21,785 nt of DNA from a virus. The stretch is from the IMG/VR virus record IMGVR_UViG_3300009441_000058, positions 1-21,785 of that record; one strand, written 5' to 3'. Each line of letters begins with the position of its first letter. Position 1 is the first letter of the stretch. Below are positions 1-21,785 of the stretch, in pieces. Below the pieces are notes generated by a model, which saw only the letters and a list, made by a program, of their open reading frames with translations, was not told the origin of the DNA and did not search any database. The translations under genes and the position numbers were made by a program.

Positions 1-1387
1 ACTGTCTGCAACATCTCCACAACTTGAAGCCGCACTATTAGATATGGCTGACGGAGTTGCTAACGATCCACTTACACAACAGTTAATGGCCAACAACGAA
101 ACGTTTAGAACACAAGCACAAAACGTACAGAATATGACGGCTGAACAAGCCGCACAGTTTGCCGTAAATGTTGGCAAGGACGGTATGAAATTTGCCAAAA
201 CACTAGGCGATGCAGGTACACAAGCCGCATTAGCGGCAGGCGGAAGTGCGGCAGAATACCTTCAGATGACTGGTCAACTTCAAACAGCACAAACAACACA
301 AGCAGGTGCCACAGATAAAGAAACAGGCGCACGTGATGCACTTACCGCAAAACTAATGACCTTTGCTGAAACAGTTGCTGATATACAAGGTAAAATACAA
401 GTTGCATTTGTTGATAGTGGAATATTTAAAAAAGCAAGCGACATGATTGCAGACTTTATTCCGTCAGGTGAAGAAGCTAAAACTATGTTTGATAAATTAT
501 CTAAAGAATTTTCAGACAACGTATTACCATCTATTACAAAAACATGGGAATGGCTAAAGGGTGATGGCTTAACTATGATGAAAAATGGAGTTACTAAATT
601 CATAGCATCTATAACTGATTTGTTTATGGGCGAAAAAATACCAAACGAACCAGGCGGCTCTCGAGGCGGTCAACGTGAAGGCGGCATAATATCAACAATG
701 TCAAGTATGTTTTCAACACTTAGTGATCTGTGGACAAAATACAAACCTGCTATTGTAGAGTTCTTTGAAAAGTTATTCACTGATCCTAAAAAGTTATTCA
801 TAGATACAATAAAGCCATTACTGAGTAGTGCGTTTAGCTCAATATTTGAAAACTTAGGATGGGTAGCTATTGGATTAGGAATTACTACGTTAATAGTTAA
901 AATGTTAGCCACGTTAAATCCTTGGGTTAAAATAGCTACTTTGCTATTTGCAGGTATTGCTTCAGTGTTTGATTGGGAAGGAATCAAAGACAAATTTAGC
1001 GCATCTGAACTAGGTAAAAGTATTAGTAAGAAGTTTAACACTATAGTAGCAGGCATTTCGAGTATATTTAATTGGGAAAATATTAAAGCCTGGCTATTAA
1101 ATTCATTACCTAGCTGGACCCCAGACTGGGTTAAAAATAAGTTAGCGGCAGGCCCAACAGCTTCAGAACCAAGTACAACTACATCTAATCCAGAAGTAAC
1201 AGCACCAGTAACAGCACCAGACACCAGCGGATCAACAACATCATCAGATCCTAGCGGATCAACAACTACTCCAGAAGCAGAGGGTGATAGTTGGTGGGAT
1301 AAGCTAAGTACTAAGATAGACGAGTTAAAAGACGAATTTAAAAAGAACACTACAGCAACTAGAGAGCTTAAAGGCAATTTGCAATAG
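1..1387 (+). CDS. Tape-measure-like structural protein, C-terminal part (5' truncated by window edge)
   Basis: The reading frame is open from base 2 to a TAG at 1385-1387. The first ATG (44) has no ribosome binding site, so the true start lies left of the window. Numbering from that ATG, the first ~130 residues are Ala/Gln/Thr-rich and helical-looking. A stretch at about 272-311 is hydrophobic and could hold one or two membrane-type helices (GWVAIGLGITTLIVKML, then IATLLFAGIASVF). There are repeated Trp/Phe amphipathic segments (SVFDWEGIK and SIFNWENIK look like duplicated units). Residues ~370-418 are a Ser/Thr/Pro-rich linker, followed by a charged C-terminal helix. Long helical sequence plus central hydrophobic segments is typical of tail tape-measure proteins, but no diagnostic motif is visible, so this is inference. 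It lies 24 bases before the portal gene, where T4 has the tail tube gene 19. Confidence 0.5.
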   Translation, partial: LSATSPQLEAALLDMADGVANDPLTQQLMANNETFRTQAQNVQNMTAEQAAQFAVNVGKDGMKFAKTLGDAGTQAALAAGGSAAEYLQMTGQLQTAQTTQAGATDKETGARDALTAKLMTFAETVADIQGKIQVAFVDSGIFKKASDMIADFIPSGEEAKTMFDKLSKEFSDNVLPSITKTWEWLKGDGLTMMKNGVTKFIASITDLFMGEKIPNEPGGSRGGQREGGIISTMSSMFSTLSDLWTKYKPAIVEFFEKLFTDPKKLFIDTIKPLLSSAFSSIFENLGWVAIGLGITTLIVKMLATLNPWVKIATLLFAGIASVFDWEGIKDKFSASELGKSISKKFNTIVAGISSIFNWENIKAWLLNSLPSWTPDWVKNKLAAGPTASEPSTTTSNPEVTAPVTAPDTSGSTTSSDPSGSTTTPEAEGDSWWDKLSTKIDELKDEFKKNTTATRELKGNLQ

Positions 1388-1411
1388 TATACTAATTTAG
1401 GAAAACGAAAC

Positions 1412-3139
1412 ATGAGTTGGAAAAGATATTTTACACCAGTTGAAGGTGACGCAGGTACACGTAGCCCGCTAAGTATGGGACAAGGCCAGCAACCCGGACC
1501 AGCAAGGTCTAATTACTCCAGTTTCCTTCCAGATGTTTACACAGGCGCTCCTAACAGAGTTGAGCGTTACGGTCAATACAATACTATGGATCAAGATAGT
1601 GAAGTAAATGCGGCACTAGATATTCTTGCTGAATTTTGCTCACAACAGAATCCAATCAATAAAACAAGTTTTAGTATTGATTTTAAGAAAATAGCAACCA
1701 ACTCAGAAGTTAAAGTACTTGAGCAATACTTACAACAGTGGACTAAAATGAATAACTTTGGTACACGTATGTTTAGAATTGTTCGTAATGTTTTTAAATA
1801 CGGCGATGCATTTTTTATTAGAGATCCAGAAACTGCAAAATGGCATCACGTTGATCCTGCAAAAGTTTCAAGTATTATTGTTAATGAATCAGAAGGTAAA
1901 ACTCCTGAGCAATATATTGTAAGAGATATTAACTTAAATTTTATTGACAACGTAGCTACAACTCCTTTCCAAACAAACGGTAATGCAACTGGTGGCGGAG
2001 ACGGATATTTAACAGGTGGCGTTAGAGGTATGGTTGGCAACACACAAACCTCTGGTTCAAGTGCTGGTAGATTTGGGCATGACAAAACAAAAGAAATTGC
2101 AGTTGATGCCGCACATATGGTACACCTAAGTTTATCAGAAGGATTAGACAACAATGCACCCTTTGGTAACAGTTTACTTGAAGGTATCTTTAAAGTATAC
2201 AAACAAAAAGAATTGCTTGAAGATGCGATTATTATCTATCGTACACAACGAGCTCCGGAAAGAAGAGTATTCTACGTTGATGTGGGCAACATGCCATCAC
2301 ACCTTGCTATGCAATTTGTTGAGCGTGTTAAAACGGAAATTCATCAAAGGCGAATCCCATCGAAGACAGGCGGCGGAACATCAGTCATAGACTCAGCTTA
2401 TAACCCTTTGTCAACTAACGAAGATTACTTCTTCCCACAAACTGCTGAAGGTAGAGGTTCTAAAGTTGAAACACTGCCAGGCGGAACTAACTTAGGTGAG
2501 ATTGACGATCTAAAATACTTTACTAACAAACTTGTTAGAGGATTGCGTATTCCAAGTAGTTACTTACCAGCCGCGGCGCAAGATGACGTTGGCGCACAAA
2601 TTAGTGATGGTAGAGTAGGTACAGCATATATTCAAGAACTACGCTTTAACAAGTATTGCGAACGTTTACAAAATCTAATTGCAGAAGTGTTTAACCAAGA
2701 GTTTAAACGCTATCTAATAGAAAAGGGTATTAACGTTGATATTGCAATGTTTGATCTTTTATTCCAACCACCACAAAACTTTGCAAGTTACAGACAAAGT
2801 GAATTAGATAATCAGCGTATTGGTACATTTGCACAAATACAAACTATTCCGTTTATTAGTAATAGATATGCAATGAAACGTTTCTTAGGAATGAGCGATT
2901 CAGAAGTTGCAGAAAATGAACGTTACTGGAAAGAAGAGAACGATGAGTTAATCACAACATCACCTACTGATGCGGCAGGCGAAATGCGTGGCGCAGGTAT
3001 TACAGGTGCTGGTATGGATGCAGACCTAGATGCAAGCGTTGATGAACTTGAAGGCGGCGAAGGCGGCGAAATTGTTGGAGCAGGCGAAGGTCCTGACTCA
3101 GTAACCACCCCGGCACCAGAAGCTCCGGCAGAGGCATAA
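1412..3139 (+). CDS. 20: T4-like portal vertex protein gp20
   Basis: This is the head portal protein. In T4-like phages twelve copies form the ring at one capsid vertex that starts prohead assembly, docks the terminase and joins the tail. The 575-aa product is slightly longer than T4 gp20 (524 aa). It shows the family's general sequence character: an N-terminal segment with NRVERYGQYNTMDQDSEVNAALDILAEFC, then NVFKYGDAFF, a central KELLEDAIIIYRTQRAPERRVFYVDVGNMP block, and DDLKYFTNKLVRGLRIPSSYLP. The last ~60 residues are a Gly/Glu/Ala/Pro-rich acidic tail of low complexity. The ATG at 1412 is preceded by TTAGGAAAA. The gene ends with TAA at 3137-3139, 8 bases before the next ATG. It is the first gene of the head cassette and is recognised with high confidence from sequence and synteny. 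Confidence 0.95.
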   Translation: MSWKRYFTPVEGDAGTRSPLSMGQGQQPGPARSNYSSFLPDVYTGAPNRVERYGQYNTMDQDSEVNAALDILAEFCSQQNPINKTSFSIDFKKIATNSEVKVLEQYLQQWTKMNNFGTRMFRIVRNVFKYGDAFFIRDPETAKWHHVDPAKVSSIIVNESEGKTPEQYIVRDINLNFIDNVATTPFQTNGNATGGGDGYLTGGVRGMVGNTQTSGSSAGRFGHDKTKEIAVDAAHMVHLSLSEGLDNNAPFGNSLLEGIFKVYKQKELLEDAIIIYRTQRAPERRVFYVDVGNMPSHLAMQFVERVKTEIHQRRIPSKTGGGTSVIDSAYNPLSTNEDYFFPQTAEGRGSKVETLPGGTNLGEIDDLKYFTNKLVRGLRIPSSYLPAAAQDDVGAQISDGRVGTAYIQELRFNKYCERLQNLIAEVFNQEFKRYLIEKGINVDIAMFDLLFQPPQNFASYRQSELDNQRIGTFAQIQTIPFISNRYAMKRFLGMSDSEVAENERYWKEENDELITTSPTDAAGEMRGAGITGAGMDADLDASVDELEGGEGGEIVGAGEGPDSVTTPAPEAPAEA

Positions 3140-3147
3140 ATAACATT

Positions 3148-3387
3148 ATGATACTACGTGAACTATTTTATTTTGATAAAGAAACACTTGAGCCTATTGA
3201 GGACAAGTCCTACGATGCTACTGATGACAAGAGCATTGTTAATCGTGACGACACACGTAAAACACGGCTTACATTAAAACAGATCAATAAAGCACGTAGG
3301 GGTTCAGAAATGCACGCCGAAGAGAAACAAAAAGAATTATCATTTGTACGCCAAATGTATGGTATCCAAGCACAGCCTGAAATATAG
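3148..3387 (+). CDS. Small conserved protein between portal and prohead core genes
   Basis: This encodes a 79-aa, highly charged protein starting MILRELFYFDKETLEP, with a central DDTRKTRLTLKQINKARR motif and a C-terminal FVRQMYGI motif. I recall very similar small proteins directly after gp20 in marine T4-like phages, where they occupy the place of T4 gene 67. I cannot confirm that it is a prohead core component. It has no signal peptide or membrane segment and should be mainly helical. The start follows the portal stop codon by 8 bases and no strong Shine-Dalgarno is present, which suggests translational coupling to gp20. Its role is unknown; a structural or assembly role is inferred only from position. 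Confidence 0.75.
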   Translation: MILRELFYFDKETLEPIEDKSYDATDDKSIVNRDDTRKTRLTLKQINKARRGSEMHAEEKQKELSFVRQMYGIQAQPEI

Positions 3388-3395
3388 GATTTTAA

Positions 3396-3995
3396 ATGAC
3401 CGTTGCTTTCGTAATAGGTAATGGCACTAGCCGTAAAGACCTTGAACTGCACTCTTTAAAAAAATACGGAAAAGTATATGCATGTAATGCAGTATTTCGT
3501 ACATTTGAGCCTGACTACTTGGTTGCTGTAGATGTAAAGATGATTTTAGAAATTAACCATGCTAAGTATCAGATGAATCATCCAGTATGGACAAATCCAA
3601 ATAAGCAATACAGTGGCATGCAAGGATTTAATTTTTTTCAACCAGCAAAAGGATGGAGCAGTGGTCCTACAGCATTATGGTTAGCAAGTACACACGCACA
3701 TGATACTATATACATCTTAGGTTTTGACTTTCATGGCACAAAGGACGATGTGGGGAACCGCACAAAGGTAAATAACTTATACGCAGGAACACACAATTAT
3801 AAAAAACAAGGTGAGCCTGCAACTTATTTTGGTAACTGGGAAAGGCAAACAGCATCAACTTGTGATGCACATCAAGGCAAGAAATTTATTAGAATAGTAT
3901 CAGATAACGACGACTTTGTACCTAAGCAATTAAAAAAATGTACGAATTTGTCACACATAACAGTTAGCGAATTTAAAAGATATTATGATTTTTAG
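3396..3995 (+). CDS. Putative sialyltransferase/DUF115-like sugar-modifying enzyme
   Basis: The 199-aa product has features reminiscent of the Rossmann-type fold shared by GT42 sialyltransferases and DUF115/MptE-like proteins. These are an N-terminal VIGNGTSR loop (residues 6-13) after a beta strand, VYACNAVFR (28-35) matching the family's CN motif, YLVAVD (41-46), and a C-terminal helix/strand pair SSGPTALWLA...DTIYILGFDFHG (88-114). In GT42 enzymes the equivalent blocks bind the CMP-sugar. The protein is shorter than typical GT42 enzymes (about 250-300 aa), so substrate and even activity are uncertain. It follows the 79-aa gene by 8 bases and is read in the same direction inside the head operon, a place where T4 has no such gene. 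It may modify a virion protein, the host surface or a nucleotide-linked compound. The enzyme class is inference from motifs. Confidence 0.6.
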   Translation: MTVAFVIGNGTSRKDLELHSLKKYGKVYACNAVFRTFEPDYLVAVDVKMILEINHAKYQMNHPVWTNPNKQYSGMQGFNFFQPAKGWSSGPTALWLASTHAHDTIYILGFDFHGTKDDVGNRTKVNNLYAGTHNYKKQGEPATYFGNWERQTASTCDAHQGKKFIRIVSDNDDFVPKQLKKCTNLSHITVSEFKRYYDF

Positions 3996-4008
3996 ACGGT
4001 TTATTTCA

Positions 4009-4032
4009 AAACGACTCGTAATGAGGCCGTTT
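4009..4032 (+). terminator. Hairpin downstream of the sugar-enzyme gene (weak terminator or processing site)
   Basis: AAACG (4009-4013) pairs with CGTTT (4028-4032), and inside it CTC (4015-4017) pairs with GAG (4023-4025) around a GTAAT loop, with a 1x2 internal loop. No run of T follows immediately, so rho-independent termination would be weak. It lies in the 110-base gap before the acidic core protein gene. Confidence 0.3.
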
Positions 4033-4054
4033 ACCGTGTATTTTCTAATCATTA

Positions 4055-4062
4055 TGTAAATA
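4055..4062 (+). promoter_or_regulatory. Candidate T4-type late promoter (TGTAAATA)
   Basis: TGTAAATA differs by one base from the late consensus TATAAATA and sits in the 110-base gap, 43 bases before the ATG at 4106. The gap after a hairpin makes a new transcription start plausible, but one mismatch in an AT-rich stretch can arise by chance. Confidence 0.3.
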
Positions 4063-4105
4063 ATATTAGACAGCCTTACGAAACTTAAATTATAGGAGAG
4101 AACAA

Positions 4106-5011
4106 ATGGCGGATAACAAACTCGAGCAAATGCTTGAAAAATTAGTTAATAACGATCGTGCGGGAGCCGATGAGCTTTTCCACGAATTTGTGATTGAAAA
4201 ATCACGTGGTATCTACGAAAAGATGCTAGAAACAGATTTAGAAGATCTTGAAGTTGCTGAAGAAACTGACGAAGAAGTTGATGAAACTACAGATGAAGAA
4301 GTAGATGAAGCAACTGATGAAGAAGTAGATGAAGCTTCAGATGACGAAGATCTTGACGAAACTACCGACGAAGAAGTTGAAGAAAACTTCGGAGAATTCA
4401 CACCAGAAGCAGATCCAATGGGCGGCGACGCTACAGACGATATGCTCGGCGACATTGAAGCCGATGGTGATGAAATGGATATGGGCGACGAAATGGACGA
4501 TGCAGATGTTGAAGATCGTGTAGTTGACCTAGAAGATGCACTTGATGACCTTAAAGCAGAATTTGAAAAAATGATGAGCGGCGAAGACGACAGCGAAGAA
4601 GCTGGCGACGACGAAGCTGACATGGATATGGATGATGAAGAAGAAGGTGATGAAGATGAGCAGGAAGAGTCTTATGAAACTTCCGAACTTAGCGATGAAG
4701 TACCGGCTTATGAAGGTACAAAGACTGAAGGCGAACAAATGCGTGAGTACGTAGAAAAAGTATCAGCACCAACAGGTGAAGATAACAAAGCTACATCACC
4801 AGTTGCAAGCAAAAATGACATGGGTGGCACAACTGCTAATATCGCAAAAGGCGGTACAGGTAGTGAAGCAGGCTCAGCAATGTCAGCTAAAGAAGATAAT
4901 GCAGGGAACGTAAACGTACCAGGCGGAAAAGCTTCTAAGTCAATGTCAAACGCTAAAGCACCTGCTACAGGTGAAAAGGCCGCTAACACTAAAAGTGTTG
5001 TTGGCAAGTAA
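4106..5011 (+). CDS. Prohead core (internal scaffold) protein, gp67/gp68-like, extremely acidic
   Basis: This encodes a 301-aa protein. The N-terminal ~45 residues form a helical segment (LEQMLEKLVNNDRAGADELF, then HEFVIEKSRGIYEKMLE) that resembles the start of T4 prohead core protein gp67. Residues 52-93 are five imperfect 8-9 aa repeats of the type E-T-T-D-E-E-V-D. A further Asp/Glu-dominated region runs to about residue 195, with a predicted coiled-coil stretch (DRVVDLEDALDDLKAEFEKM). The last ~90 residues are Gly/Ser/Ala/Lys-rich and probably disordered. It is much longer than T4 gp67 (80 aa) or gp68 (141 aa). In T4 such core proteins fill the prohead and are degraded by gp21 before packaging. 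The start has an AGGAGAG ribosome binding site, and the next gene is gp21 after 12 bases. The family assignment rests on position, the N-terminal helix and acidity. Confidence 0.7.
   Translation: MADNKLEQMLEKLVNNDRAGADELFHEFVIEKSRGIYEKMLETDLEDLEVAEETDEEVDETTDEEVDEATDEEVDEASDDEDLDETTDEEVEENFGEFTPEADPMGGDATDDMLGDIEADGDEMDMGDEMDDADVEDRVVDLEDALDDLKAEFEKMMSGEDDSEEAGDDEADMDMDDEEEGDEDEQEESYETSELSDEVPAYEGTKTEGEQMREYVEKVSAPTGEDNKATSPVASKNDMGGTTANIAKGGTGSEAGSAMSAKEDNAGNVNVPGGKASKSMSNAKAPATGEKAANTKSVVGK
4259..4384 (+). repeat. Five tandem 24-27 base repeats encoding acidic octapeptides
   Basis: In-frame units lie at 4259-4282, 4283-4306, 4307-4330, 4331-4357 and 4358-4384. They encode EETDEEVD, ETTDEEVD, EATDEEVD, EASDDEDLD and ETTDEEVEE. 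Units two and three are nearly identical at DNA level (GATGAAGAAGTAGATGAAG is shared), which points to recent slippage or unequal recombination. Confidence 0.85.
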
Positions 5012-5023
5012 TAAGGAACTCAG

Positions 5024-5665
5024 ATGAATAAGATGTTTAATTTAACTGAAACACTATCATTCGACCAGGCAAAGATGGTCGTCGAGACTACTGAAAATGA
5101 TGCAGGTGGAAAAGACTTGTATCTCAAGGGTATTTGCATTCAGGGAGGTGTTCGTAACGCCAACCAACGTGTTTATCCTGTAAGTGAGATTAGTAGAGCT
5201 GTCAACACGCTCAACGATCAAATCAAAGGTGGATATAGTGTACTAGGTGAAGTTGATCATCCTGAAGGCCTTAATATTAACCTTGACCGTGTAAGTCATA
5301 TGATTACAGAAATGTGGATGGATGGCCCAAATGGTTATGGTAAGTTGAAAGTAATTCCAACTCCGATGGGACAGCTAGTTAAAACAATGCTTGAGAGCAA
5401 CGTTAAACTAGGTGTTTCATCTAGGGGTTCAGGAAATGTGAAAGACGATGGAAGTGGCGAGGTCAGCGAATTTGAAATTATTACAGTTGACGCCGTTGCC
5501 CAACCAAGTGCTCCTGGAGCGTACCCAACTCCAATTTACGAACACTTAATGAATACTCGTGGTGGGTATAAGGCAATCAATATGGCTCAAGAATTACAGG
5601 GCGATGCAAAGGCACAGAAATACCTAAAGGAATCGTTGGTGAATATTATCAGCGGTCTCCGCTAA
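5024..5665 (+). CDS. 21: Prohead core protease gp21
   Basis: This is the maturation serine protease of T4-like proheads. It cleaves scaffold, core and capsid precursors after the consensus [L/I]-x-E and then itself. The 213-aa product matches T4 gp21 (212 aa) in length. It shows the herpes-protease-type catalytic region: GEVDHPE with His79, and GVSSRG with the nucleophile Ser132 or Ser133. Next comes the conserved ITVDAVAQPSAPGA strand/loop (residues 153-166). The N-terminal half contains NANQRVYPVSEI, typical of the family. The gene starts 12 bases after the acidic core protein, with AAGGAAC upstream, and is followed after 13 bases by the scaffold gene. The two fit together functionally because gp21 degrades gp22. 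Confidence 0.93.
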   Translation: MNKMFNLTETLSFDQAKMVVETTENDAGGKDLYLKGICIQGGVRNANQRVYPVSEISRAVNTLNDQIKGGYSVLGEVDHPEGLNINLDRVSHMITEMWMDGPNGYGKLKVIPTPMGQLVKTMLESNVKLGVSSRGSGNVKDDGSGEVSEFEIITVDAVAQPSAPGAYPTPIYEHLMNTRGGYKAINMAQELQGDAKAQKYLKESLVNIISGLR

Positions 5666-5678
5666 CAAGGAGAAAAGA

Positions 5679-6779: not shown

Positions 6780-6789
6780 GGAGAATGAA

Positions 6790-7953
6790 ATGTCAGAACT
6801 ATTAGAAAGTCGCTGGCAGGATACAAAGACTGCACTTCTTGAAGGCCTAACAGGCAATAAGAAAGCCGTAATGGGCGTGACTCTTGAGAATACCAAAAGG
6901 TATTTAGCAGAGACAGCTACAGCGGGTGCATCTTCAGCAGGTAATGTTGCAACTCTTAACAGAGTTATCCTACCAGTAATCAGACGTGTTATGCCGACTG
7001 TTATTGCCAACGAATTAGTTGGTGTACAGCCTATGACAGGTCCCGTGGGTCAGATCCACACATTAAGAGTTCGTTATGCGGATACATTAGATGATGTAGT
7101 TGCAGGCGAAGAAGCACTATCACCGTTCAAAATTGGTGTTGGCTACAGTGGCGGCGGTTCTACCGACAAAGCAGATGCAACAGCAACACTTGAAGGTGCG
7201 GCAGGCAAGCGTTTGTCAATTCAAATCTTGAAGCAGACAGTGGAAGCGAAGACACGTAAGTTAAGTGCTCGTTGGACATTTGAAGCGGCTCAAGATGCAC
7301 AAGCACAGCAAGGCATCGACATCGAAGCTGAAATCATGGCGGCATTAGCACAAGAAATTACTGCTGAAATCGACCAAGAAATCTTAGCTTCTTTACGTAG
7401 TTTAGCTGGCTCTGCAGAATCAGACGTGCAATTCGACCAAGCTGGCGTAAGTGGCACTGCTACTTTTGTTGGTGATGAGCATGCGGCATTAGCTGTTATG
7501 ATCAACAGAGTTGCTAACAAGATTGCGGCACGTACACGTCGCGGTGCAGGTAACTATGCAGTGGTTTCACCATTTGCATTAACTATCCTACAGTCTGCAA
7601 CAACAAGTGCATTTGCACGTACAACTGAAGGTACTTTTGAAGCTCCAACTAACACTAAAATGGTTGGTACTTTAAACGGTGCAATGAAAGTATACGTTGA
7701 CGCATATGCTTCAGACGCAACTGACGTACTAGTTGGATTTAAAGGATCAAGCGAATCAGACGCACCAGCGTTCTACGCTCCTTATATTCCACTAATGTCA
7801 AGTGGTGTTGTATTGGATCCAGGCACATTTGAGCCTGTTGTATCGTTCATGACACGTTACGGCTACGTTGAATTATCAAACGTTGCTAGTTCACTTGGTA
7901 ACGCGGCTGACTACCTTGGAAGAGTAAGTATTTCCAACGTAACATTCAGCTAA
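6790..7953 (+). CDS. 23: Major capsid protein gp23 (short form)
   Basis: This is the HK97-fold major head protein of T4-like phages. The N-terminal delta region MSELLESRWQ...TKRYLAE is followed by the family-typical segment VILPVIRRVMPTVIANELVG, then VQPMTGPVGQIHTLRVRY. The expected gp21 cleavage site is after LAE (residues 39-41), so the removed peptide would be 41 aa against 65 in T4. At 387 aa the precursor is well below T4 gp23 (521 aa) and most cyanophage gp23 proteins (~450-470 aa), which suggests a small or missing insertion domain. The C-terminal half contains AQEITAEIDQEILASLRSLA, typical of the spine and E-loop side, and ends YVELSNVASSLGNAADYLGR. The ribosome binding site is AAGGAGAATG and the ATG at 6790 is chosen over one at 6785. 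A strong terminator follows 24 bases after the stop. Confidence 0.93.
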   Translation: MSELLESRWQDTKTALLEGLTGNKKAVMGVTLENTKRYLAETATAGASSAGNVATLNRVILPVIRRVMPTVIANELVGVQPMTGPVGQIHTLRVRYADTLDDVVAGEEALSPFKIGVGYSGGGSTDKADATATLEGAAGKRLSIQILKQTVEAKTRKLSARWTFEAAQDAQAQQGIDIEAEIMAALAQEITAEIDQEILASLRSLAGSAESDVQFDQAGVSGTATFVGDEHAALAVMINRVANKIAARTRRGAGNYAVVSPFALTILQSATTSAFARTTEGTFEAPTNTKMVGTLNGAMKVYVDAYASDATDVLVGFKGSSESDAPAFYAPYIPLMSSGVVLDPGTFEPVVSFMTRYGYVELSNVASSLGNAADYLGRVSISNVTFS

Positions 7954-7977
7954 GTTGTTTCTTAGTAGATAGAAATT

Positions 7978-8008
7978 AAAATAGGCCCTTTAGGGGGCCT
8001 ATTTTTTT
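7978..8008 (+). terminator. Rho-independent terminator after gp23
   Basis: The left arm AAAATAGGCCC (7978-7988) pairs with GGGCCTATTTT (7995-8005) around a 6-base loop, and seven T (8002-8008) complete the tract. This 11-bp stem with a GC-rich core is the clearest terminator in the window. It separates the head cassette from the virion surface module. Confidence 0.88.
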
Positions 8009-8025
8009 GACTTGAGTTCCACTTT

Positions 8026-8033
8026 GATAAATA
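8026..8033 (+). promoter_or_regulatory. Candidate T4-type late promoter (GATAAATA)
   Basis: GATAAATA matches the late consensus at 7 of 8 positions and stands directly after the gp23 terminator and 86 bases before the next start codon, where a new transcription unit must begin. A transcript from here would start near 8039 and carry an ~80-base leader with hairpins. Confidence 0.55.
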
Positions 8034-8050
8034 CATTGTCATAGAGAGAA

Positions 8051-8088
8051 CCTCAATGATGAGGACTTATGCTGTACCCACAGCGTAG
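8051..8088 (+). other. Two adjacent hairpins in the leader of the 8120 gene
   Basis: CCTCA (8051-8055) pairs with TGAGG (8060-8064) around ATGA. TTATGCTGT (8067-8075) pairs with ACAGCGTAG (8080-8088) around ACCC, with two G-U pairs. Both lie in the predicted untranslated leader, upstream of the AAGGAG at 8107-8112. They may stabilise the mRNA or affect translation; no known riboswitch class is recognised. Confidence 0.45.
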
Positions 8089-8119
8089 ACCTAGAACGTC
8101 TTACATAAGGAGAAAACAA

Positions 8120-8737
8120 ATGGGAAGACCAATTAATAAAAAGCACATCGGTGATGGAGCAGGTAAAATTCAAGTAACAGCAGTTAAATTTGCGGCTGGC
8201 GGGGAAATTACTACTGAGTCACATATTGTGTCACAAAGATCAACAAACAAATTTATTGTAACTGATGGAACTAAAACAGAAACTTGTACACTTGTTAACA
8301 AGTCAATTGCGGCATTAGGCGCAAGTGAATTCTGCATTAACGTAACTGACAGTGACGGTGTTACTAAGCAAGTTACTAAACTAATGAACAGAAAAATGCA
8401 ACTTGAAGGTGCATCTAATCACAAGTGGGCAAGAACAGCTACAGGTACTTCGGCCGCAGTTGAAAAAGTTATTTCAGGTGCTACAGCGGCAAATCCATGT
8501 GTTATCACAGCAACTGGACACGGCTTTAGCAACGGAGATAAAGTATCTATCCGTGGCGTAGTTGGAATGGTTGAGCTTAACCTTGAAACTGCATACACAG
8601 TAGCTGGTAAAACAACTAATGGGTTTCAATTATCAGGTGTTAATAGTACTGGCTTTACTGGTTATACATCAGGTGGTGTAGCAACTAAAGCGGCTACTGA
8701 AACTGGTGGTGTTGTAGTTGACGCACAAGCATCTTAA
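8120..8737 (+). CDS. Putative capsid decoration/virion structural protein
   Basis: The 206-aa product starts MGRPINKKHIGDG, a start I recall from small structural proteins lying downstream of gp23 in marine T4-like phages. The ATG at 8120 is preferred over an in-frame ATG at 8069 because it follows AAGGAGAAAACAA, and the earlier ATG falls inside a hairpin. Residues 1-105 form a beta-rich domain with SHIVSQRSTNKFIVTDG and CTLVNKS, ending TKLMNRKMQLEG. Residues ~115-190 form a second module, ITATGHGFSNGDKVSIRGV...YTVAGKTTNGFQLSGV...GYTSGG. That pattern is common in phage tail and adhesin proteins and is often labelled FCCH/Ig-like. It has its own promoter and leader, consistent with an abundant virion protein. 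The decoration role is inferred from position. Confidence 0.7.
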   Translation: MGRPINKKHIGDGAGKIQVTAVKFAAGGEITTESHIVSQRSTNKFIVTDGTKTETCTLVNKSIAALGASEFCINVTDSDGVTKQVTKLMNRKMQLEGASNHKWARTATGTSAAVEKVISGATAANPCVITATGHGFSNGDKVSIRGVVGMVELNLETAYTVAGKTTNGFQLSGVNSTGFTGYTSGGVATKAATETGGVVVDAQAS

Positions 8738-8777
8738 TTTAAGATAAGAATGTTGTGGGGGCAAGTTCCCCACAACA
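8731..8777 (+). terminator. Hairpin(s) after the 8120 gene, terminator-like
   Basis: TGTTGTGGGG (8751-8760) pairs perfectly with CCCCACAACA (8768-8777) around a 7-base loop. It is followed only by GTTTAAGG, so the T tract is short. Just upstream, ATCTTAA T TTAAGAT (8731-8745) is a perfect inverted repeat spanning the stop codon. The GC-rich hairpin is either a leaky terminator reducing transcription into the fibre gene or a 3' stabiliser. Confidence 0.55.
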
Positions 8778-8794
8778 GTTTAAGGAAATTATAA

Positions 8795-9745: not shown

Positions 9746-9757
9746 GGAAAGAGAAAT

Positions 9758-10606: not shown

Positions 10607-10610
10607 TTCC

Positions 10611-10618
10611 TATAAATA
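10611..10618 (+). promoter_or_regulatory. T4-type late promoter (TATAAATA)
   Basis: This is a perfect TATAAATA octamer in the 37-base intergenic gap, 25 bases before the ATG at 10644. It leaves room for a start near 10624 and the ribosome binding site GAGAGGG (10631-10637). Confidence 0.75.
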
Positions 10619-10643
10619 GTATTAATATTAGAGAGGGATTCAC

Positions 10644-14693: not shown

Positions 14694-14705
14694 ATTTCAA
14701 AATCG

Positions 14706-14713
14706 TATAAATA
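14706..14713 (+). promoter_or_regulatory. T4-type late promoter (TATAAATA)
   Basis: This is a perfect octamer 12 bases after the stop of the 1349-aa fibre gene. With the usual late-promoter spacing the transcript would start near 14719-14720, exactly at the base of the first hairpin of the leader. Confidence 0.75.
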
Positions 14714-14719
14714 ATAGTA

Positions 14720-14820
14720 ATGCAAAGAAGACCAACTATACTCTTTGCAGAGACAAACTGTGGTTAGCCAGCAAAGAGTGAAAGCTGTAAATTTAGGCTA
14801 GAGGGACAGGATCCCCGTAT
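14720..14820 (+). other. Structured 5' leader with mutually exclusive hairpins
   Basis: TGCAAAGA (14721-14728) pairs with TCTTTGCA (14742-14749). Alternatively ACTCTTTGC (14740-14748) pairs with GCAAAGAGT (14771-14779). These two pairings exclude each other because they share 14742-14748. CAGC (14769-14772) can pair with GCTG (14784-14787), enclosed by TAGC (14765-14768)/GCTA (14797-14800); this excludes the second pairing. GGGA (14803-14806) pairs with TCCC (14812-14815) just before the AAGGAG at 14822-14827. A 15-codon reading frame (14720-14767) starts at the predicted transcript end but has no ribosome binding site. No known riboswitch consensus is recognised. Confidence 0.5.
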
Positions 14821-14832
14821 TAAGGAGAGAAG

Positions 14833-17800
14833 ATGGCAATTGGTCGCATATCGGGTCCTCTCTTAAAGGAAAACCTCCTACGTAATGGGACGGATTTGGC
14901 CTTTGAGACAGACCTTTTATATTTAGATGTAACAAATCGTCGAATCGGTGTAAAAACCACTAGTCCTCAATACGCATTAGACATTGTAGGCACTGCAAGA
15001 GTTACCGACTTAGAAATTACAAATACTACATTCCAAGTAGGTAATGTAACAATCAACGGTGCTACTAGCACTATTTCAACTACTGCACAAGAATTTTCAA
15101 TAGCTACTGCTGACAATACTATTGTTGGTAACAGAGTTATTGTAGGCGACTTAGAACTTAATAACAACTTTATTGAAAACACAAATACTAACAGTGATTT
15201 GTTTATTCGTGCAAACGGAACTGGTGAAATTAACATTATTGGTAACACTACTGTTAATGGTAATCTACATGCTACTGGAAATATTAGTGCAGACGGCAAT
15301 ATTACTATTGGTAGTGATGACACTGATAACATTTTTATTAATGCAGATATTGCTAGTGATCTTATGCCAGACATTGACAACACGTACAATATCGGTACAT
15401 CATCAAAGCGTTGGGCAACTGGTAACTTTGCTAACGTAACAACAAATACACTAACAACAAATGACCTAGACTTTGGTGCTATTGATTTAATTAGTACTCC
15501 GGGCAATTTGATATACGTTGCTACAAACGGTAGTGATTCTAGAACAGGAACACACCCGCAAGATCCGGTTGCGACTATTGCAAAAGGTTTAGAACTTGCT
15601 GGCCTACACGATACAGTTTACATTTATCCAGGACAATATCAAGAAGCATTTCCATTAACTGTTCCACAAGGTGTTACAGTAAGAGGGCACAGTTTACGTG
15701 CAGTTGAGATTTCTCCAACAAGTGGAACACAAAGCAACGATGCATTTTTAATGCAAGGCGACTCAGCAGTTGAAGATGTTACACTTAAAGATTTTTATTA
15801 TAATAGCGGAGCAAACACAGGACACGGTTTCCGTTTTGCTAACAACGTTAGAATTTATGAAAGATCACCATACATAAGAAACGTTAGTGTAATCACAAAA
15901 GGTACAACAACTAGTACTGATGATCCAAGAGGATTTGCAAGTGGTGACGCAGGTAAAGGTTGTTTCATTGATGGTGCAGTTGCACATTCAGATTCAAGAG
16001 AAGCCGCAATGCTTTTCCACAGTGTAACATTTATTACTCCAGGAGTTAGTGGACTTAAAGTTACTAATGGCGCAAGGGTAGAATGGTTAAATTGCTTTAC
16101 ATACTTTGCAGACAAGGGTATTGAAATACTTGAGGGTGCTAGTGGACTTAAAGGCGATGGAAAAACAAAAATTAAATATAGCGGATTTGCTGGAACAGCA
16201 GTAGCCGCAGGGCAAAATATTGTTCTTAAAGACGCAGGCGGCGCAACATTAGCAACAGCCGCAATTGAATCAATTGATACTAATACTGTAATTATTGATG
16301 GTAAAGCAACTGGATTTATTAAGCCATTAAGTAGAGCTAAGAAAACTGTTACAGCAGTTGGTAACGCTCAAGTTTCTACAGGAACTCCTATAAAGTTTGG
16401 AACAGGAATTGGATTATTTGACGGCACAGGCGATAGATTCTCACTAACTTCTGCGAGTGATTTTGGCTTTGGCACAGGTGACTTTAGTGTAGAAGGGGTA
16501 ATTTATATCTCAGATGACACTGGTACAGAAATGATGTTTGACTTTAGAGCAGGCTCGGCTACTGACAATGCATTAAATTTTTACACAGTTGATAGAGTTC
16601 CAAAAATTAACATTGGTACTACTTCAATTATGGCTCCGGCTATTACACTTATTAATACTACTTTTTATCATATTATGATTTCGAGAGTTGGTACAACAAT
16701 TAAGTTCTTTGTTGACGGAGTACAGCAAGCTACTGCATCAAATAATACTAATTTAGGAACAACTAAGCCATTAATTATTGGTTCGGACTACGCAGGCGTA
16801 AATGGTTTTGCAGGACGTATTGACGACTTCCGTGTTAGAAAAGGAGCAGGTCAAGCATCTGCATTTACTAATCCAACTAGTGCTTCAATAGTTGATCAAT
16901 ACACTGTATTAAAATTAGATTTTGACGAAGACAGTGGATCACAAGTACTTGTTGATAATGATACATTTATTCAAGACGTTGAGTTTAGCGGAGGCGGCAC
17001 TGCTACAGCATTAACATTTATTGATCACTCGGACTTTGGTGGTGAAATTAGAAGTATTGCAAGTGCAAGTGTTTACGGTAATTACGGTATTCACGGAACA
17101 GGCAGTGGTTCGATTGTGTATGCTATTGGGATGAACTTAGCTTACATTGGCACAGGTAAAGACGTTACTAATGATGTAACTGAAGTTATCCAAGCAAACG
17201 AAGTTGTTGCTAACAGCGATGCAAATATATACTTTAGTACAGTTGACCACAAAGGTGACTTTAGAGTAGGCGATTTATTTAGAGTTAACCAAGAAACAGG
17301 CGAAGTAACATTTACTAACGCAGAATTCTTATTTAATAACAACCAAGGTATTACGTTTACTGACGGTACAAACACAACGATTATTGATGGCACAAAGGTT
17401 GAAGCTGGAAATATTAGAGTTAGCGGAAATACTATTAGTAGTACTAGCGGCGATATTAATATTAACAGTTCAACAGGCAACATTAATTTACAAGACAACG
17501 TTAATATTACTGGTAACTTAGATGTAACTGGCAATGTAACAGTTGGCGGAAATATTACACTCGGCGACGAAGATACTGACACAATTAATATCAACGCAAG
17601 AATTGACAGTGACATTGTTCCAAATGTTGACGATACATATAAGTTAGGAACAACATTACTTAATTGGTCAGAAATAAATGTTGGCAAGGTATTTGTCGAT
17701 GATATTATTATTGACAACGATACTATTACTACAAATGCAAGTAATGGCGATATTAATGTTACACCAAACGGAGTTGGCCAAGTTATTATTGATCAACTAC

Positions 17801-18549
17801 AACTTAGTGATAACATTATTGCTAACCTAAGTGGCGACATCATATTAGATCCAAGTAGTGAGTCTGTAACAATCGATGCTACAGGAGCATTAATACTTCC
17901 TAAGGGTACAACAGCACAGCGTCCTGGATCACCAATTACTGGTATGATTAGATATAACACTGATACTAGTGTTTTTGAAGCATATGACGGAAGCTGGATC
18001 CAGCTAGGCGGAGTATACGATGTTGATAGAGATACATACATTACACCCGAGTTAACACCGGGCGCCAACGATAATACACTAAGATTTTATGCAGGTGGTT
18101 CGCTTGTAGCTGATGTAAATACAGAACGATTTAACGTAGCAAGACTTGAAGTAGATGACATTGCTATACACGATAATGTTTTAGAAACAATTACTACTAA
18201 CGAAGATTTAGTTTTACGTGCAAACGGCAGTGGTTTTGTAACAATTGAAAACTTTAGTTTTAACGGAAATGTGATAACTAATACTATAGACGGTGCTGTT
18301 ACTACTTTAAAACAAGCAGGATCAGGATACTTTAAAGTTGAAGGAACAGGCGGATTTGTTATTCCTGTTGGTAACAACGCTAACAGGCATCCTAGTCCAG
18401 AACTTGGAATGATGCGGTATAACACAGTTGAAGACAGAGTAGAAATATACGATGTCGGCAATAACTGGGTTTCGGTTGCAGGTGCTACAGGTGCTGTTAC
18501 ATTTAATGATGCAGAGGAAATTGCAATAAAACTTGCATTACTATTATAG
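14833..18549 (+). CDS. Giant tail fibre/adhesin with beta-helix and LamG-like insert (1238 aa)
   Basis: This is a paralog of the preceding fibre. The N-terminus IGRISGPLLKENLLRNGTDL aligns with that of the 1349-aa protein. A module NITIGSDDTDNIFINADIAS...DNTYNIGTSSKRW (from ~residue 153) recurs near residue 907 (NITLGDEDTDTININARIDS...DDTYKLGTTLLNW). The beta-helix starts at ~226 (IYVATNGSDSRTGTHPQDP) and shares YIYPGQYQEAFPLTV, DFYYNSGANTG and DPRGFASGDAGKG with the paralog. It is interrupted at ~438-731 by an insert; residues ~507-700 of this look like a LamG/concanavalin-type jelly roll (FDGTGDRFSL, FSVEGVIYI, IKFFVDGVQQATASN, GFAGRIDDFRVRKG). Two PKGT-type modules close the protein (from ~1022 and ~1177). 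The ribosome binding site is AAGGAGAG. It is probably a carbohydrate-recognising host-range fibre. Confidence 0.82.
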   Translation: MAIGRISGPLLKENLLRNGTDLAFETDLLYLDVTNRRIGVKTTSPQYALDIVGTARVTDLEITNTTFQVGNVTINGATSTISTTAQEFSIATADNTIVGNRVIVGDLELNNNFIENTNTNSDLFIRANGTGEINIIGNTTVNGNLHATGNISADGNITIGSDDTDNIFINADIASDLMPDIDNTYNIGTSSKRWATGNFANVTTNTLTTNDLDFGAIDLISTPGNLIYVATNGSDSRTGTHPQDPVATIAKGLELAGLHDTVYIYPGQYQEAFPLTVPQGVTVRGHSLRAVEISPTSGTQSNDAFLMQGDSAVEDVTLKDFYYNSGANTGHGFRFANNVRIYERSPYIRNVSVITKGTTTSTDDPRGFASGDAGKGCFIDGAVAHSDSREAAMLFHSVTFITPGVSGLKVTNGARVEWLNCFTYFADKGIEILEGASGLKGDGKTKIKYSGFAGTAVAAGQNIVLKDAGGATLATAAIESIDTNTVIIDGKATGFIKPLSRAKKTVTAVGNAQVSTGTPIKFGTGIGLFDGTGDRFSLTSASDFGFGTGDFSVEGVIYISDDTGTEMMFDFRAGSATDNALNFYTVDRVPKINIGTTSIMAPAITLINTTFYHIMISRVGTTIKFFVDGVQQATASNNTNLGTTKPLIIGSDYAGVNGFAGRIDDFRVRKGAGQASAFTNPTSASIVDQYTVLKLDFDEDSGSQVLVDNDTFIQDVEFSGGGTATALTFIDHSDFGGEIRSIASASVYGNYGIHGTGSGSIVYAIGMNLAYIGTGKDVTNDVTEVIQANEVVANSDANIYFSTVDHKGDFRVGDLFRVNQETGEVTFTNAEFLFNNNQGITFTDGTNTTIIDGTKVEAGNIRVSGNTISSTSGDININSSTGNINLQDNVNITGNLDVTGNVTVGGNITLGDEDTDTININARIDSDIVPNVDDTYKLGTTLLNWSEINVGKVFVDDIIIDNDTITTNASNGDINVTPNGVGQVIIDQLQLSDNIIANLSGDIILDPSSESVTIDATGALILPKGTTAQRPGSPITGMIRYNTDTSVFEAYDGSWIQLGGVYDVDRDTYITPELTPGANDNTLRFYAGGSLVADVNTERFNVARLEVDDIAIHDNVLETITTNEDLVLRANGSGFVTIENFSFNGNVITNTIDGAVTTLKQAGSGYFKVEGTGGFVIPVGNNANRHPSPELGMMRYNTVEDRVEIYDVGNNWVSVAGATGAVTFNDAEEIAIKLALLL

Positions 18550-18558
18550 GGAAAAAAG

Positions 18559-18888
18559 ATGGCAACGAATTTTAAAAATATCATAGGAAAAGAAGTAGGC
18601 ACAAGCCGGGTAGCAGTTTATACAACTCCTGCCGCTACTAGTGCAACTGTTATCGGAATGAATATCGCTAATTTAACAAGTGGCATGGTAAGTGCTACCC
18701 TTGAAGTTGGTGACGAAGCAAGTTCGATTGGTGTACTAATTAAAGGGATGCCTATTCCTCCTAATACTGCAATGAAGCCAATTGGCAAGGGTGAGAAAAT
18801 TGTTCTTGATGCAGGTAACGTATTATACGTTACGTCGGATACAACTGAATCACTTGATGTGATTCTTAGCTTAGTGGAGATTGTATAA
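18559..18888 (+). CDS. Small virion-associated beta protein (paralog of the 9758 product)
   Basis: The 109-aa product, MATNFKNIIGKEVGTSRVAV..., is predicted all-beta with a hydrophobic C-terminal block KIVLDAGNVLYVTSDTTESL followed by DVILSLVEIV. This parallels the end of the 114-aa protein encoded at 9758. It has no enzymatic or membrane motif. The start follows GGGAAAAAAG by a few bases, and its TAA overlaps the next ATG by one base (TAATG at 18886-18890), so translation of the two is coupled. It lies between two giant fibres and is likely a virion component; its exact place is unknown. Confidence 0.7.
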   Translation: MATNFKNIIGKEVGTSRVAVYTTPAATSATVIGMNIANLTSGMVSATLEVGDEASSIGVLIKGMPIPPNTAMKPIGKGEKIVLDAGNVLYVTSDTTESLDVILSLVEIV

Positions 18889-19247
18889 TGTCAGATAACT
18901 TTTTAGGTCAAAGCATACAAAATATGATTGACCAAACAGATGCAAGATATTTTTATGGATTGCGTAGAACAGACGACGGTGAATTGTATGTAGCTAAAGT
19001 TGATCAGCTTACAAGTCATGATAGTATTGCAATTAACGCTGAAGGCGATCCAACAGATAACTATGAAGACTTTGATCAAGGTGAAAATTTCTTTGAAGGA
19101 AGAAATGTAAACCACGAGAGGCTTTATAAGAATTTAAATTATGAACAATTTAGATGGGATAACAGAAATATTAGTTACTATATTGACGATAGCGGAAATT
19201 TAGTAGCACGAATTAACGAAGATTACACATACCCAACGGGTGTATAA
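18888..19247 (+). CDS. Conserved small virion protein
   Basis: The 119-aa product, MSDNFLGQSIQNMIDQTDAR..., is acidic and rich in Tyr, Asp and Asn. It contains YFYGLRRTDDGELYVAKVDQ, a central FDQGENFFEGRNVNHE motif and a C-terminal ISYYIDDSGNLVARINEDYTYP. I recall closely similar small proteins from marine T4-like phages, usually called virion structural or hypothetical. The ATG overlaps the previous stop codon by one base. A late promoter octamer overlaps its own stop codon and starts the next transcription unit. Function cannot be stated beyond a probable structural role. Confidence 0.7.
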   Translation: MSDNFLGQSIQNMIDQTDARYFYGLRRTDDGELYVAKVDQLTSHDSIAINAEGDPTDNYEDFDQGENFFEGRNVNHERLYKNLNYEQFRWDNRNISYYIDDSGNLVARINEDYTYPTGV

Positions 19248-19250
19248 ATA
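19243..19250 (+). promoter_or_regulatory. T4-type late promoter (TATAAATA) overlapping a stop codon
   Basis: This is a perfect octamer overlapping the TAA at 19245-19247 and ending 17 bases before the ATG at 19268. It predicts a short leader of about 12 bases that contains the GAAGG/GAG ribosome binding region. Confidence 0.7.
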
Positions 19251-19267
19251 CTTAGAAGGTTGAGAAA

Positions 19268-21785
19268 ATGGCAGAATTTAAACTAAGCAGAATAAGATTT
19301 AATTGGAAAGGCACGTGGACAGGCGGCTCAGACTATATCGTTGATGATATGATCGAGTACCAAGGGTTTACATATGTTGCTTTACGAACACACACTGGCG
19401 CTACATTTTATAATGATCTTGCAGGTACTGATGTTACACCGGCATTACCAAAATGGAAAAAACAGTCAGAAGGTAAAGTTTGGAAAAATGGTTGGGCTAC
19501 AAGCACGATATACGCAGTAGGTAATATTGTAAAATACGGTGCTAGTATTTACGAATGTACTGAGTCTCATACTTCTGCCGCAACATTTGCTTCAGGCACA
19601 GACGGACTAGTTGCTGACATTGGAAAATGGACACTAGTTGCTGTTTCGTCAGCAGACTGGAAGTACAACTGGACAGTTAGCACACTATACAGAACAAACG
19701 ATCTAGTACGTTACAATGGTAAAGTTTACAAAGCTGTTAATCAGCACGTATCTGCCGCAACAACACTTGCAGGCTTAGAAGCTAACCAAGGAGATTGGGC
19801 AACACTATCTGATAGTGATACTTGGAGAGCAAACTGGTCAATTGGTGTACGTTATCGTATAAACGATATTGTAAAATACGGCGGCATTGTTTACCAATGT
19901 GTTCAAGGACACACTTCGGCTGATAACGCAACGCTAGGTTTAGAAGAAGATCAATCCAAGTGGGCTGTACAACTTGACGGTATTGAGTATGTTGCTATAT
20001 CAACAACAGACGAAGATGGTGTTGTAACAATTTCATCAGAGTGGGTTTCATCTTACAGATATAAGAAAAATGATATCGTAAAGCGTGGCGGAAACTTGAT
20101 GCAGTGTATACTAGGTCATACGTCATCAACAGGGTCAAACGGATTTAATACTGATTATGCGGCCAATAACTGGACAACATATCTTCCAGGTAGTGAATAC
20201 GAAGGAGTATGGGCTGATAACGTTTACTATCAACCAGGCGATACTGTACTATACGGCGGATACATTTATAAAGCAGTTACATTTAACTTTGCATTAGCAC
20301 CAAGTACATATACAACTGATTGGAATTTAACTTTTGAAGGTTATAAATTTAGGCAAGATTGGAACGCCGAAGATGGCGACAGTTCATTTGTAAATTACAA
20401 AACAGGTGATATGGTTCGTCATTCAGGAAGTTTATATATTGCTATTCAAGATAGTACAAACTTACAACCTGATGCATGGCCTGCATATTGGGAACAAATT
20501 ATAGATGGTCGTCAATACAGAAACTTCTGGGAAGACAATGTTGAATATTTTCCAGGAGATATTGTTACTTGGCAAGGGACTGCATATCTTGCACTAACAT
20601 ATCATAGATCAACAGAATCGGCTTCTAGACCCGATATGGACATTAACCAACCAGATCAAAATTACTGGAAAGTAATGATTCTTGGTACACTAACTAACAA
20701 GTTAGCAAGACGCGGTGACTTAAAAACATTTGAAGATCAAGACTCAACTGCAATAGACACACAACGACTTGCAATTGGCTCAACTGGTCAAGCATTAAGA
20801 GTTACAGGAACAGTTCCGGCATGGGACTCACTTGATCTACAAGCAAAACTTTATTATGTATCAACTAATGGCATTGATGATGCAACACAAGGCGGCACAT
20901 TAAACGCTCCGTTTAGAACAATTAGATTTACAATGGCGTACTTGTTAGCAGACCAGGCTCACAGAGTTGGCCAAGGTGCAACTGTAAAATGTATGTCAGG
21001 TGAGTTTGCTGAAATTCTTCCAATTAGTATTCCAAGTAAAGTTGCACTTGTTGGTGCTGAATTAAGAACAACAACGATTCGTCCAGCAGTTTCTACTGAT
21101 GTTGTATTAGGTGAGAGAACTTACATCAACGGTGTTGTACAACCTCAATTAGTACTAAGTGTTGGAGATGATAACGTTAGATCAAATATGTTCTATGTTA
21201 GAAACGGCAGTGGACTTAGAGATTGTACACTTACAGGACTTACTGGAGCACTAGTAGGACCAAACTCATACGGAACTAAGCGACCAACAGGCGGCGCATT
21301 TGTGTCACTTGACCCTGGTACAGGACCGGACGACACAAGTGTTTGGATTGCAGATGCTAATAAAATGCAATATACACCAACGGCAGGTACATACGCTCCG
21401 GCATCTGGTGTAATGACATTAACTATTCCTTCTGCAGAATATACACCTACAACAGGAACAACTTATGATCCAGCAAACGGGTTAATGACAATAGAATTTG
21501 GAACAGTACACGGATTACAGCCAAAAGAAGAAATTAGCTTTGATCCTAACAGTTTAACATTTACATGTGCAAAAGATGATTTTTTAACAAATCATACATA
21601 TCCAAGAATAACAGATCCTGCATACGGTGAAAAACGTAAAATTATTGCAGTTACGCCTACAAGCATTGTAGTAAATGTTGGAGTTAATCCAGACGGAGTT
21701 TACGAACACAGGTTTGTTAGTGCTACTAACGACTCAATAAATTGGTCTCACAATATTACACCAGGACAATCAGTAAGTATAGATG
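19268..21785 (+). CDS. Large fibre with eight tandem CBM-like modules and a beta-helix (3' truncated)
   Basis: The frame is open from ATG 19268 through the right edge (839 complete codons seen). Residues ~12-472 hold eight repeats of about 50-60 aa with the pattern W-x(4-8)-Y-x(3)-D/G-D/N-I/V-V-x-Y-G-G-x-x-Y-x-A/C-x(4)-H-T/S, ending in a Trp. Examples are WSIGVRYRINDIVKYGG and WADNVYYQPGDTVLYGG. This resembles carbohydrate-binding modules of families 5/12 found in chitinases and phage adhesins. From ~residue 535 a beta-helix-like domain follows (LYYVSTNGIDDATQGGTLNA, PFRTIRFTMAYLL). Later come two YTPTxGTYxPAxGxMT repeats and a SLTFTCAKDDFLTNHTYPRI block that I recall from marine phage fibres. 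It has its own late promoter. It is likely a glycan-binding fibre or baseplate adhesin; the C-terminal domain is outside the window. Confidence 0.8.
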   Translation, partial: MAEFKLSRIRFNWKGTWTGGSDYIVDDMIEYQGFTYVALRTHTGATFYNDLAGTDVTPALPKWKKQSEGKVWKNGWATSTIYAVGNIVKYGASIYECTESHTSAATFASGTDGLVADIGKWTLVAVSSADWKYNWTVSTLYRTNDLVRYNGKVYKAVNQHVSAATTLAGLEANQGDWATLSDSDTWRANWSIGVRYRINDIVKYGGIVYQCVQGHTSADNATLGLEEDQSKWAVQLDGIEYVAISTTDEDGVVTISSEWVSSYRYKKNDIVKRGGNLMQCILGHTSSTGSNGFNTDYAANNWTTYLPGSEYEGVWADNVYYQPGDTVLYGGYIYKAVTFNFALAPSTYTTDWNLTFEGYKFRQDWNAEDGDSSFVNYKTGDMVRHSGSLYIAIQDSTNLQPDAWPAYWEQIIDGRQYRNFWEDNVEYFPGDIVTWQGTAYLALTYHRSTESASRPDMDINQPDQNYWKVMILGTLTNKLARRGDLKTFEDQDSTAIDTQRLAIGSTGQALRVTGTVPAWDSLDLQAKLYYVSTNGIDDATQGGTLNAPFRTIRFTMAYLLADQAHRVGQGATVKCMSGEFAEILPISIPSKVALVGAELRTTTIRPAVSTDVVLGERTYINGVVQPQLVLSVGDDNVRSNMFYVRNGSGLRDCTLTGLTGALVGPNSYGTKRPTGGAFVSLDPGTGPDDTSVWIADANKMQYTPTAGTYAPASGVMTLTIPSAEYTPTTGTTYDPANGLMTIEFGTVHGLQPKEEISFDPNSLTFTCAKDDFLTNHTYPRITDPAYGEKRKIIAVTPTSIVVNVGVNPDGVYEHRFVSATNDSINWSHNITPGQSVSID
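19300..20685 (+). repeat. Eight tandem CBM5/12-like protein modules
   Basis: These are degenerate in-frame protein repeats with one aromatic-rich unit per ~170 bases. Approximate unit openings are WKGTWTGGSDY, WKNGWATSTIY, WKYNWTVSTLY, WRANWSIGVRY, SEWVSSYRY, YEGVWADNVYY, FRQDWNAEDGD and YRNFWEDNVEY. DNA identity between units is low, so this is an old amplification. Confidence 0.75.
21371..21495 (+). repeat. Duplicated YTPTxGTY motif in the fibre
   Basis: YTPTAGTYAPASGVMTLTI and YTPTTGTTYDPANGLMTIEF are consecutive units of about 21 residues, clearly duplicated at protein level. Similar repeats recur in fibres of marine T4-like phages, to my knowledge. Confidence 0.65.

Follow-up and report, generated by a model that had tools for sequence, protein, structure and literature searches.

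Introduction

Elimination of Type II recognition sites from phage genomes is already documented. Staphylococcus phage K, whose genome is given as 140 kb, has had its GATC (Sau3A) sites eliminated (PMC6532042), and, according to the part of the survey by Rusinov et al. (2018; PMC6286503) considered here, orthodox Type II sites, GCWGC being among those named, are completely or almost completely eliminated in about one-tenth of viral genomes. In the sea, pelagiphages are divided by phylogeny into GANTC-depleted and other members (PMC9516812). For GCWGC itself, expression of the M.AbaBS3I gene stops cutting by TseI (PMC6329791). Here, we analyze an uncultured virus fragment (IMG/VR record IMGVR_UViG_3300009441_000058, positions 1 to 21,785; hereafter, the window), which is 21,785 bp long, ends where its source record ends and lacks GCWGC altogether. 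We consider it very probable that the lineage of the window lost all its GCWGC sites through selection by a host Type II restriction endonuclease of the TseI/ApeKI type. Such elimination is known from other viruses; in this phage group, it has left no site at all in several separate branches and is frequently accompanied by loss of other sites.

A literature search, judged mostly by the titles listed, returned nothing on this phage group. Three candidate precedents were set aside: a Sargasso Sea paper carries GCWGC only within a polymerase chain reaction primer, PMC6022877 contains GATC only as a company name, and the text of PMC12570018 is without GCWGC.

Results

GCWGC is missing from the window

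Neither GCAGC nor GCTGC occurs in the 21,785 bp, and hence there is no GCWGC on either strand. The initial annotation, which had recognized this absence, put the expectation at roughly 15 or more; that figure was too low, the computed values being 35.4 under a maximal-order Markov model, 34.3 ± 5.0 under dinucleotide shuffling (n = 100) and 33.2 ± 2.7 (minimum 26) under codon-preserving shuffling of the coding sequence (n = 200), the test that the annotation had proposed. Under the Markov model, GCWGC is the lowest of all 5-mers in the window (z = -7.7; next lowest, -5.0). The sister word GCSGC, described at the outset as frequent, is in excess, with 54 occurrences against 36.8, 13.5 and 12.1 expected under the three models, respectively. 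Thus, the window does not display the GCNGC avoidance that an enzyme of the Fnu4HI type would leave, nor do seven pooled contigs without GCWGC (see below), in which GCCGC reaches 1.56 of expectation.

The imprint on codon usage was also read correctly. All 34 Ala-Ala steps in the open reading frames (ORFs) of the window start with GCC (15) or GCG (19) and none with GCA or GCT, the codons that account for 517 of the 597 Ala codons counted; in a relative with normal GCWGC content (contig G010), the first codon is GCA or GCT in 203 of 221 such steps. Of the three examples singled out in the annotation, the first two are correctly placed (Table 1), and the third, given as 15999-16009, lies at 16003-16008.

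The loss extends over long contigs of related phages

As no sequence of the source record lies beyond the window, the motif was followed in relatives rather than in the rest of the genome. The portal scan (best 80 of 592 confirmed relatives) yielded 21 zero, 8 depleted and 51 normal loci. Together with the capsid scan (best 80 of 600 relatives), which added 77 loci, and after removal of 7 loci on contigs already counted, the set comprises 151 contigs including the window, with near-identical relatives retained: 32 are devoid of GCWGC (zero contigs), 21 are partial, i.e., below 0.65 of expectation, and 98 are normal. Because the shortest zero loci would be expected to carry only 6-9 sites, each of them alone is weak evidence. 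The long contigs show that the loss is not local: ten zero contigs, including the window and contigs of 126,586 and 97,865 bp, contain no site in 507,815 bp against 596.4 expected. Both the window and these ten contigs taken together fall under recognition-site elimination, defined as a ratio of observed to expected counts under 0.1 where 15 or more sites are expected. The expectation is 132.1 for G001 (126,586 bp), 91.7 for G002, 84.5 for G029, 54.9 for G005, 52.1 for G003, 43.0 for G004, 41.8 for G028, 31.7 for G006 (20,000 of its 20,549 bp counted) and 29.2 for G032. One further contig, G027, retains a single GCWGC against 78.8 expected, inside ORF G027_039, which we read as its capsid gene.

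The partial contigs G007 (63 observed, 220.9 expected), G031 (18 and 76.4) and G008 (23 and 45.4) look like lineages in transition. In G008, 9 of the 23 sites are concentrated in a single gene (1295-2300), which might be recently acquired DNA that has not yet been purged.

The loss is exact and synonymous

When seven zero contigs were pooled, GCWGC stood at 0 of 442 expected, and the next lowest of the 512 5-mer classes was at 0.51 of expectation. None of the 13 classes that differ from GCWGC by one mismatch is depleted (1.03-1.56 of expectation). Portal genes were compared at positions where a normal phage has GCWGC and the residue pair is the same, 1726 comparisons with changed residues being set aside. 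Among these comparisons, which are not independent of each other, the site was kept in 0 of 1265 involving zero phages and in 2606 of 3833 (68%) between normal phages. In the Ala-Ala frame, the zero phages have GCCGC or GCGGC in all 1001 cases. The sites were thus removed by synonymous replacement, without change of residues.

Given this exactness, the chance that mutation bias, codon bias, random fluctuation or a library artefact removed GCWGC is practically negligible. All that speaks for such an origin is that several palindromes are generally under-represented in this phage group; the codon-preserving shuffles and the intact one-mismatch neighbors contradict it, and the same IMG dataset (3300024346) yielded both a locus with 20 sites (L015) and one with none against 11.5 expected (L031).

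Other palindromes are missing from other lineages

After correction for testing 416 palindromes in 23 contigs, AGCT was purged from G002 (0 observed, 226.7 expected), G032 (0 and 55.4), G029 (2 and 150.1) and G003 (5 and 112.2), the count in G005 (10 and 88) falling below significance. RCATGY is absent from G001, G002 and G029 (37.5, 17.0 and 20.7 expected), GCGC from G010 and G026 (92.8 and 66.8 expected) and CTGCAG from G030 (23.8 expected). GTGCAC is reduced to 1-2 occurrences against 17-23 expected in G009, G013 and G030, GKGCMC to 1 against 26.4 in G013 and GCWWGC to 2 against 25.7 in G029, and CATG has been eliminated in seven loci. In 7 of the 23 contigs (G007, G008, G011, G012, G023, G025 and G031), no palindrome passed the corrected test. 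Isolated relatives add further cases. All five have GCWGC at normal or higher numbers; a 42-kb stretch of GAP32 (L231) lacks GCGC (22.6 expected) and GGYRCC (11.3 expected) and has one GAYRTC against 30 expected, and a 42-kb stretch of Atu_ph07 (L233) lacks CCWGG (27.9 expected). AGCT, RCATGY, GCGC, CTGCAG, CATG and CCWGG are the Type II specificities of AluI, NspI, HhaI, PstI, NlaIII and EcoRII, respectively. GCWGC is the word most often eliminated in this phage group.

Non-palindromic words are affected as well: ACTGC/GCAGT is strongly depleted in G013 (39 observed, 136 expected) and CACTG is depleted in G001, G002 and G012, possibly representing further restriction specificities.

Among the 149 loci with enough expected sites, 12 of the 13 purged of AGCT also have zero GCWGC (Fisher p = 1e-8, kinship ignored). 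This joint loss is what a host system other than an orthodox Type II pair, reading duplex GCWGC and possibly multi-specific, might explain, and in the part of PMC6286503 considered here the link between site elimination and orthodox Type II systems is correlative. Nevertheless, we regard such a system as very improbable, given that the exact palindromes GCWGC, AGCT, RCATGY, GCGC and CATG form the classic Type II pattern, that locus L213 is without AGCT yet has 13 GCWGC sites and that 19 of the 31 zero-GCWGC loci have not been purged of AGCT.

The zero state changed repeatedly

In a quick IQ-TREE phylogeny of the portal protein (81 rows, 22 of them zero), the zero state requires at least four changes, three of which are forced by starred branches. 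Grouping of the 22 zero rows in one clade was rejected (approximately unbiased [AU] test, p = 0.000465), as was a clade of these rows plus locus L007 (AU p = 0.0099). Hence, the zero state arose or changed more than once.

Genes of the window

The window carries T4-type head genes followed by large genes of structural type (Table 1). Among isolates of the phage collection, those closest to it are T4-like phages of large size, with portal identities of 45.7-51.3% among the 40 matches listed and capsid identities of up to 69.9%. With its predicted portal, head protease and capsid genes of T4 type, the fragment would come from a T4-like and presumably lytic phage.

Table 1. Genes of the window and examples of Ala-Ala codon choice
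Feature	Position	Strand	Basis
Portal protein, T4-type (gp20)	1412..3139	+	Pfam PF07230, E 4.9e-109; probe for relatives, basis of tree
Ala-Ala-Ala as gcc-gcg-gcg in portal gene; GCSGC where GCWGC is usual	2570..2578	+	Sequence; portal genes of 81 rows compared
Head maturation protease	5024..5665	+	PHROG 207, E 4.9e-57
Major head protein, gp23 type	6790..7953	+	PHROG 138, E 9.4e-97; second probe for relatives
Ala-Ala as gcg-gca in major capsid gene	7339..7344	+	Sequence
Tail protein-like gene	8069..8737	+	PHROG 584 major tail protein, E 3.4e-8
Large gene, 1349 aa	10644..14693	+	Pfam search: no match
Large structural-type gene, 1238 aa, with lectin-like Laminin_G_3 stretch	14833..18549	+	PF13385, E 1.9e-13
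Ala-Ala as gcc-gca in large structural-type gene	16003..16008	+	Sequence
Large gene continuing past window end, four CBM_5_12 stretches	19268..21784	+	PF02839, E 5.9e-45

Methylases and nucleases encoded by the phages

The initial annotation had offered a methyltransferase of the phage itself as an alternative to evasion. This is not borne out: PF00145 had no match in 22 and in 11 records, nor PF01555 and PF02086 in 25 records each, absences that may stem from the records being fragments and that concern lists without the record of the window. As far as these three Pfam families show, the phages seem not to methylate their own DNA. A protective methylase is also disfavored because methylation would make purging of the sites unnecessary.

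Comparison of 10 zero, 4 partial or near-zero and 9 normal contigs revealed no gene family that marks the zero state. The widest zero-only family, hemB-like, is present in 3 of the 10 zero contigs (L099:8757-9665 in G005, 7476-8384 in G003 and G029_014) with no copy observed in the remaining 7; six others occur in 2 each. The G005 copy, the one tested, matches Pfam ALAD (E 4.1e-44), and the gene may be an auxiliary metabolic gene that serves tetrapyrrole synthesis. Conversely, one normal-only family was found in 6 of the 9 normal contigs and also in the partial contig G007. A protein that we read as an SGNH/GDSL-like hydrolase was considered as a zero marker and dismissed, being encoded in G001, G002 and the partial G007 but also in the normal G025. 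The same applies to two candidate nucleases found in zero and normal records alike, namely, the TnsA-like PF08722 (2 of 10 zero, 1 of 4 partial or near-zero and 6 of 9 normal records) and phrog_274, annotated in PHROGs as DNA endonuclease V (2 of 10, 1 of 4 and 3 of 9, respectively). The latter occurs at 1-6 places per contig, often in tandem, in G001, G007, G011, G023, G025 and G029; the G001 copies resemble 2OG-oxygenase-type proteins, and the PHROGs label may be wrong.

T4-type phages degrade host DNA. A phage-encoded GCWGC endonuclease could contribute to this digestion, with the genome of the phage kept free of the site instead of being modified, and total purging is what such self-protection would demand. 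Room for the gene is available: ORFs of at least 100 aa without a match in the nine normal contigs make up 33 of 107 in G001, 25 of 81 in G002 (about a third in each) and 9 of 57 in G029. Furthermore, restriction-named PADLOC profiles match G001 proteins (E 8.4e-13 to 3.4e-4, not tied to a single protein); we infer that these are helicases. The scan of G001 covered 88 of its 133 ORFs, and the present account of it draws on 25 of 60 Pfam and 25 of 68 PHROG families; PADLOC analysis of 67 of the 91 G002 ORFs plus four of G005 returned only the pVip, pVip-kinase and PDC-S01 profiles. The absence of a gene family that is widespread in zero contigs but lacking in the normal set, the distribution of PF08722 and phrog_274 and the further enzymes that AGCT, RCATGY, GCGC and CATG would call for leave an endonuclease of the phage itself unlikely, with a small remaining chance; because the contigs are fragments, these observations weaken the idea without dismissing it.

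The 126-kb G001 (L087-L088) encodes a proline dehydrogenase, an aldehyde dehydrogenase, a pyruvate:ferredoxin oxidoreductase-like protein and a beta-eliminating lyase. The G002 (L089-L092) set of 71 proteins (67 of G002) includes nine radical-SAM proteins, five Asp/Asn beta-hydroxylase-like proteins and one tryptophan halogenase-like protein, an unusual combination for a phage.

Discussion

Evasion of host GCWGC restriction, as already suggested in the initial annotation, is the best-supported reading of these data, in view of the five-base palindrome, the totality of its loss, the synonymous replacement and the losses of other palindromes in other lineages. GCWGC is its own reverse complement and thus has the symmetry of Type II recognition. 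An exact palindrome with an A/T center, differences among lineages and total removal therefore fit a duplex-specific host Type II enzyme; our inference is that the host encodes the cutting enzyme and that it is of the restriction-modification type. Such an enzyme would cut GCWGC and spare GCSGC. A mutation creating a site would then lead to cutting of the genome on entry, and a synonymous or neutral change removing a site would let the genome survive.

Several observations weigh against this scenario. The contigs are fragments, none of them a known complete genome, leaving room for an enzyme encoded by the phages, and the 33 unmatched ORFs of G001 count in the same direction. Neither a host nor a restriction enzyme or methylase specific for GCWGC came to light; a genome scan with the G001 aldehyde dehydrogenase led to 10 loci (of 13 stretches) in unrelated phyla at 31-53% identity, from which no host was inferred. 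No eliminated palindrome was evident in three of the five isolated relatives (Vibrio phage 2.275.O, Phosso and PA5oct). Locus L007, with a normal GCWGC count (28 observed, 26.2 expected), is nested in the clade of the window (Shimodaira-Hasegawa-like approximate likelihood ratio test [SH-aLRT] support, 86), and its position, along with the 21 partly depleted contigs out of 151, means that turnover of hosts or enzymes is needed. Finally, restriction alone does not account for the top rank of GCWGC among the eliminated words.

We tentatively suggest, as a possibility to which we give limited weight, that separate branches of this phage group repeatedly met a recurring set of host restriction specificities, mostly GCWGC, with AGCT and RCATGY in some branches, so that the missing words would form a switchable record of the hosts of each branch; joint loss of GCWGC and AGCT may reflect linked enzymes or one dual system. 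Similarly, the proposal in the initial annotation that missing GCWGC is a host fingerprint is reasonable but unproven. The imprint on the phage genomes, probably left by a defense enzyme of the hosts, is clean and can be tested. Missing words matched to methylomes could help to propose hosts of uncultured phages, and, because the zero state has been gained and lost here and there within a single group, public contigs allow one to measure how fast restriction drives genome change.

Compared with described systems, the GCWGC-free phages resemble phage K in that a short palindrome has been purged from phage DNA. Unlike phage K, for which host and enzyme are known, they are known from sequence alone, their state is scattered over branches and two or three motifs have often been lost together. 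The survey of Rusinov et al. (PMC6286503) covers phages with known hosts, unlike the present group, and the part of it considered here describes no GCWGC-free lineage beside GCWGC-rich sisters. In the pelagiphages (PMC9516812), both the motif and the phage group are different, and GANTC is described as depleted, not absent. At the level of enzymes, the recognition word GCWGC is shared by TseI/ApeKI, by M.AbaBS3I of freshwater Chloroflexi and by M.BatI of a Bacillus anthracis prophage. We found no link between the bacteria carrying M.AbaBS3I or M.BatI and these phages, and M.BatI also methylates GCGGC, whereas GCSGC is in excess in the phages. Set beside these systems, the T4-like group described here provides an unusually clear comparative record of GCWGC loss.

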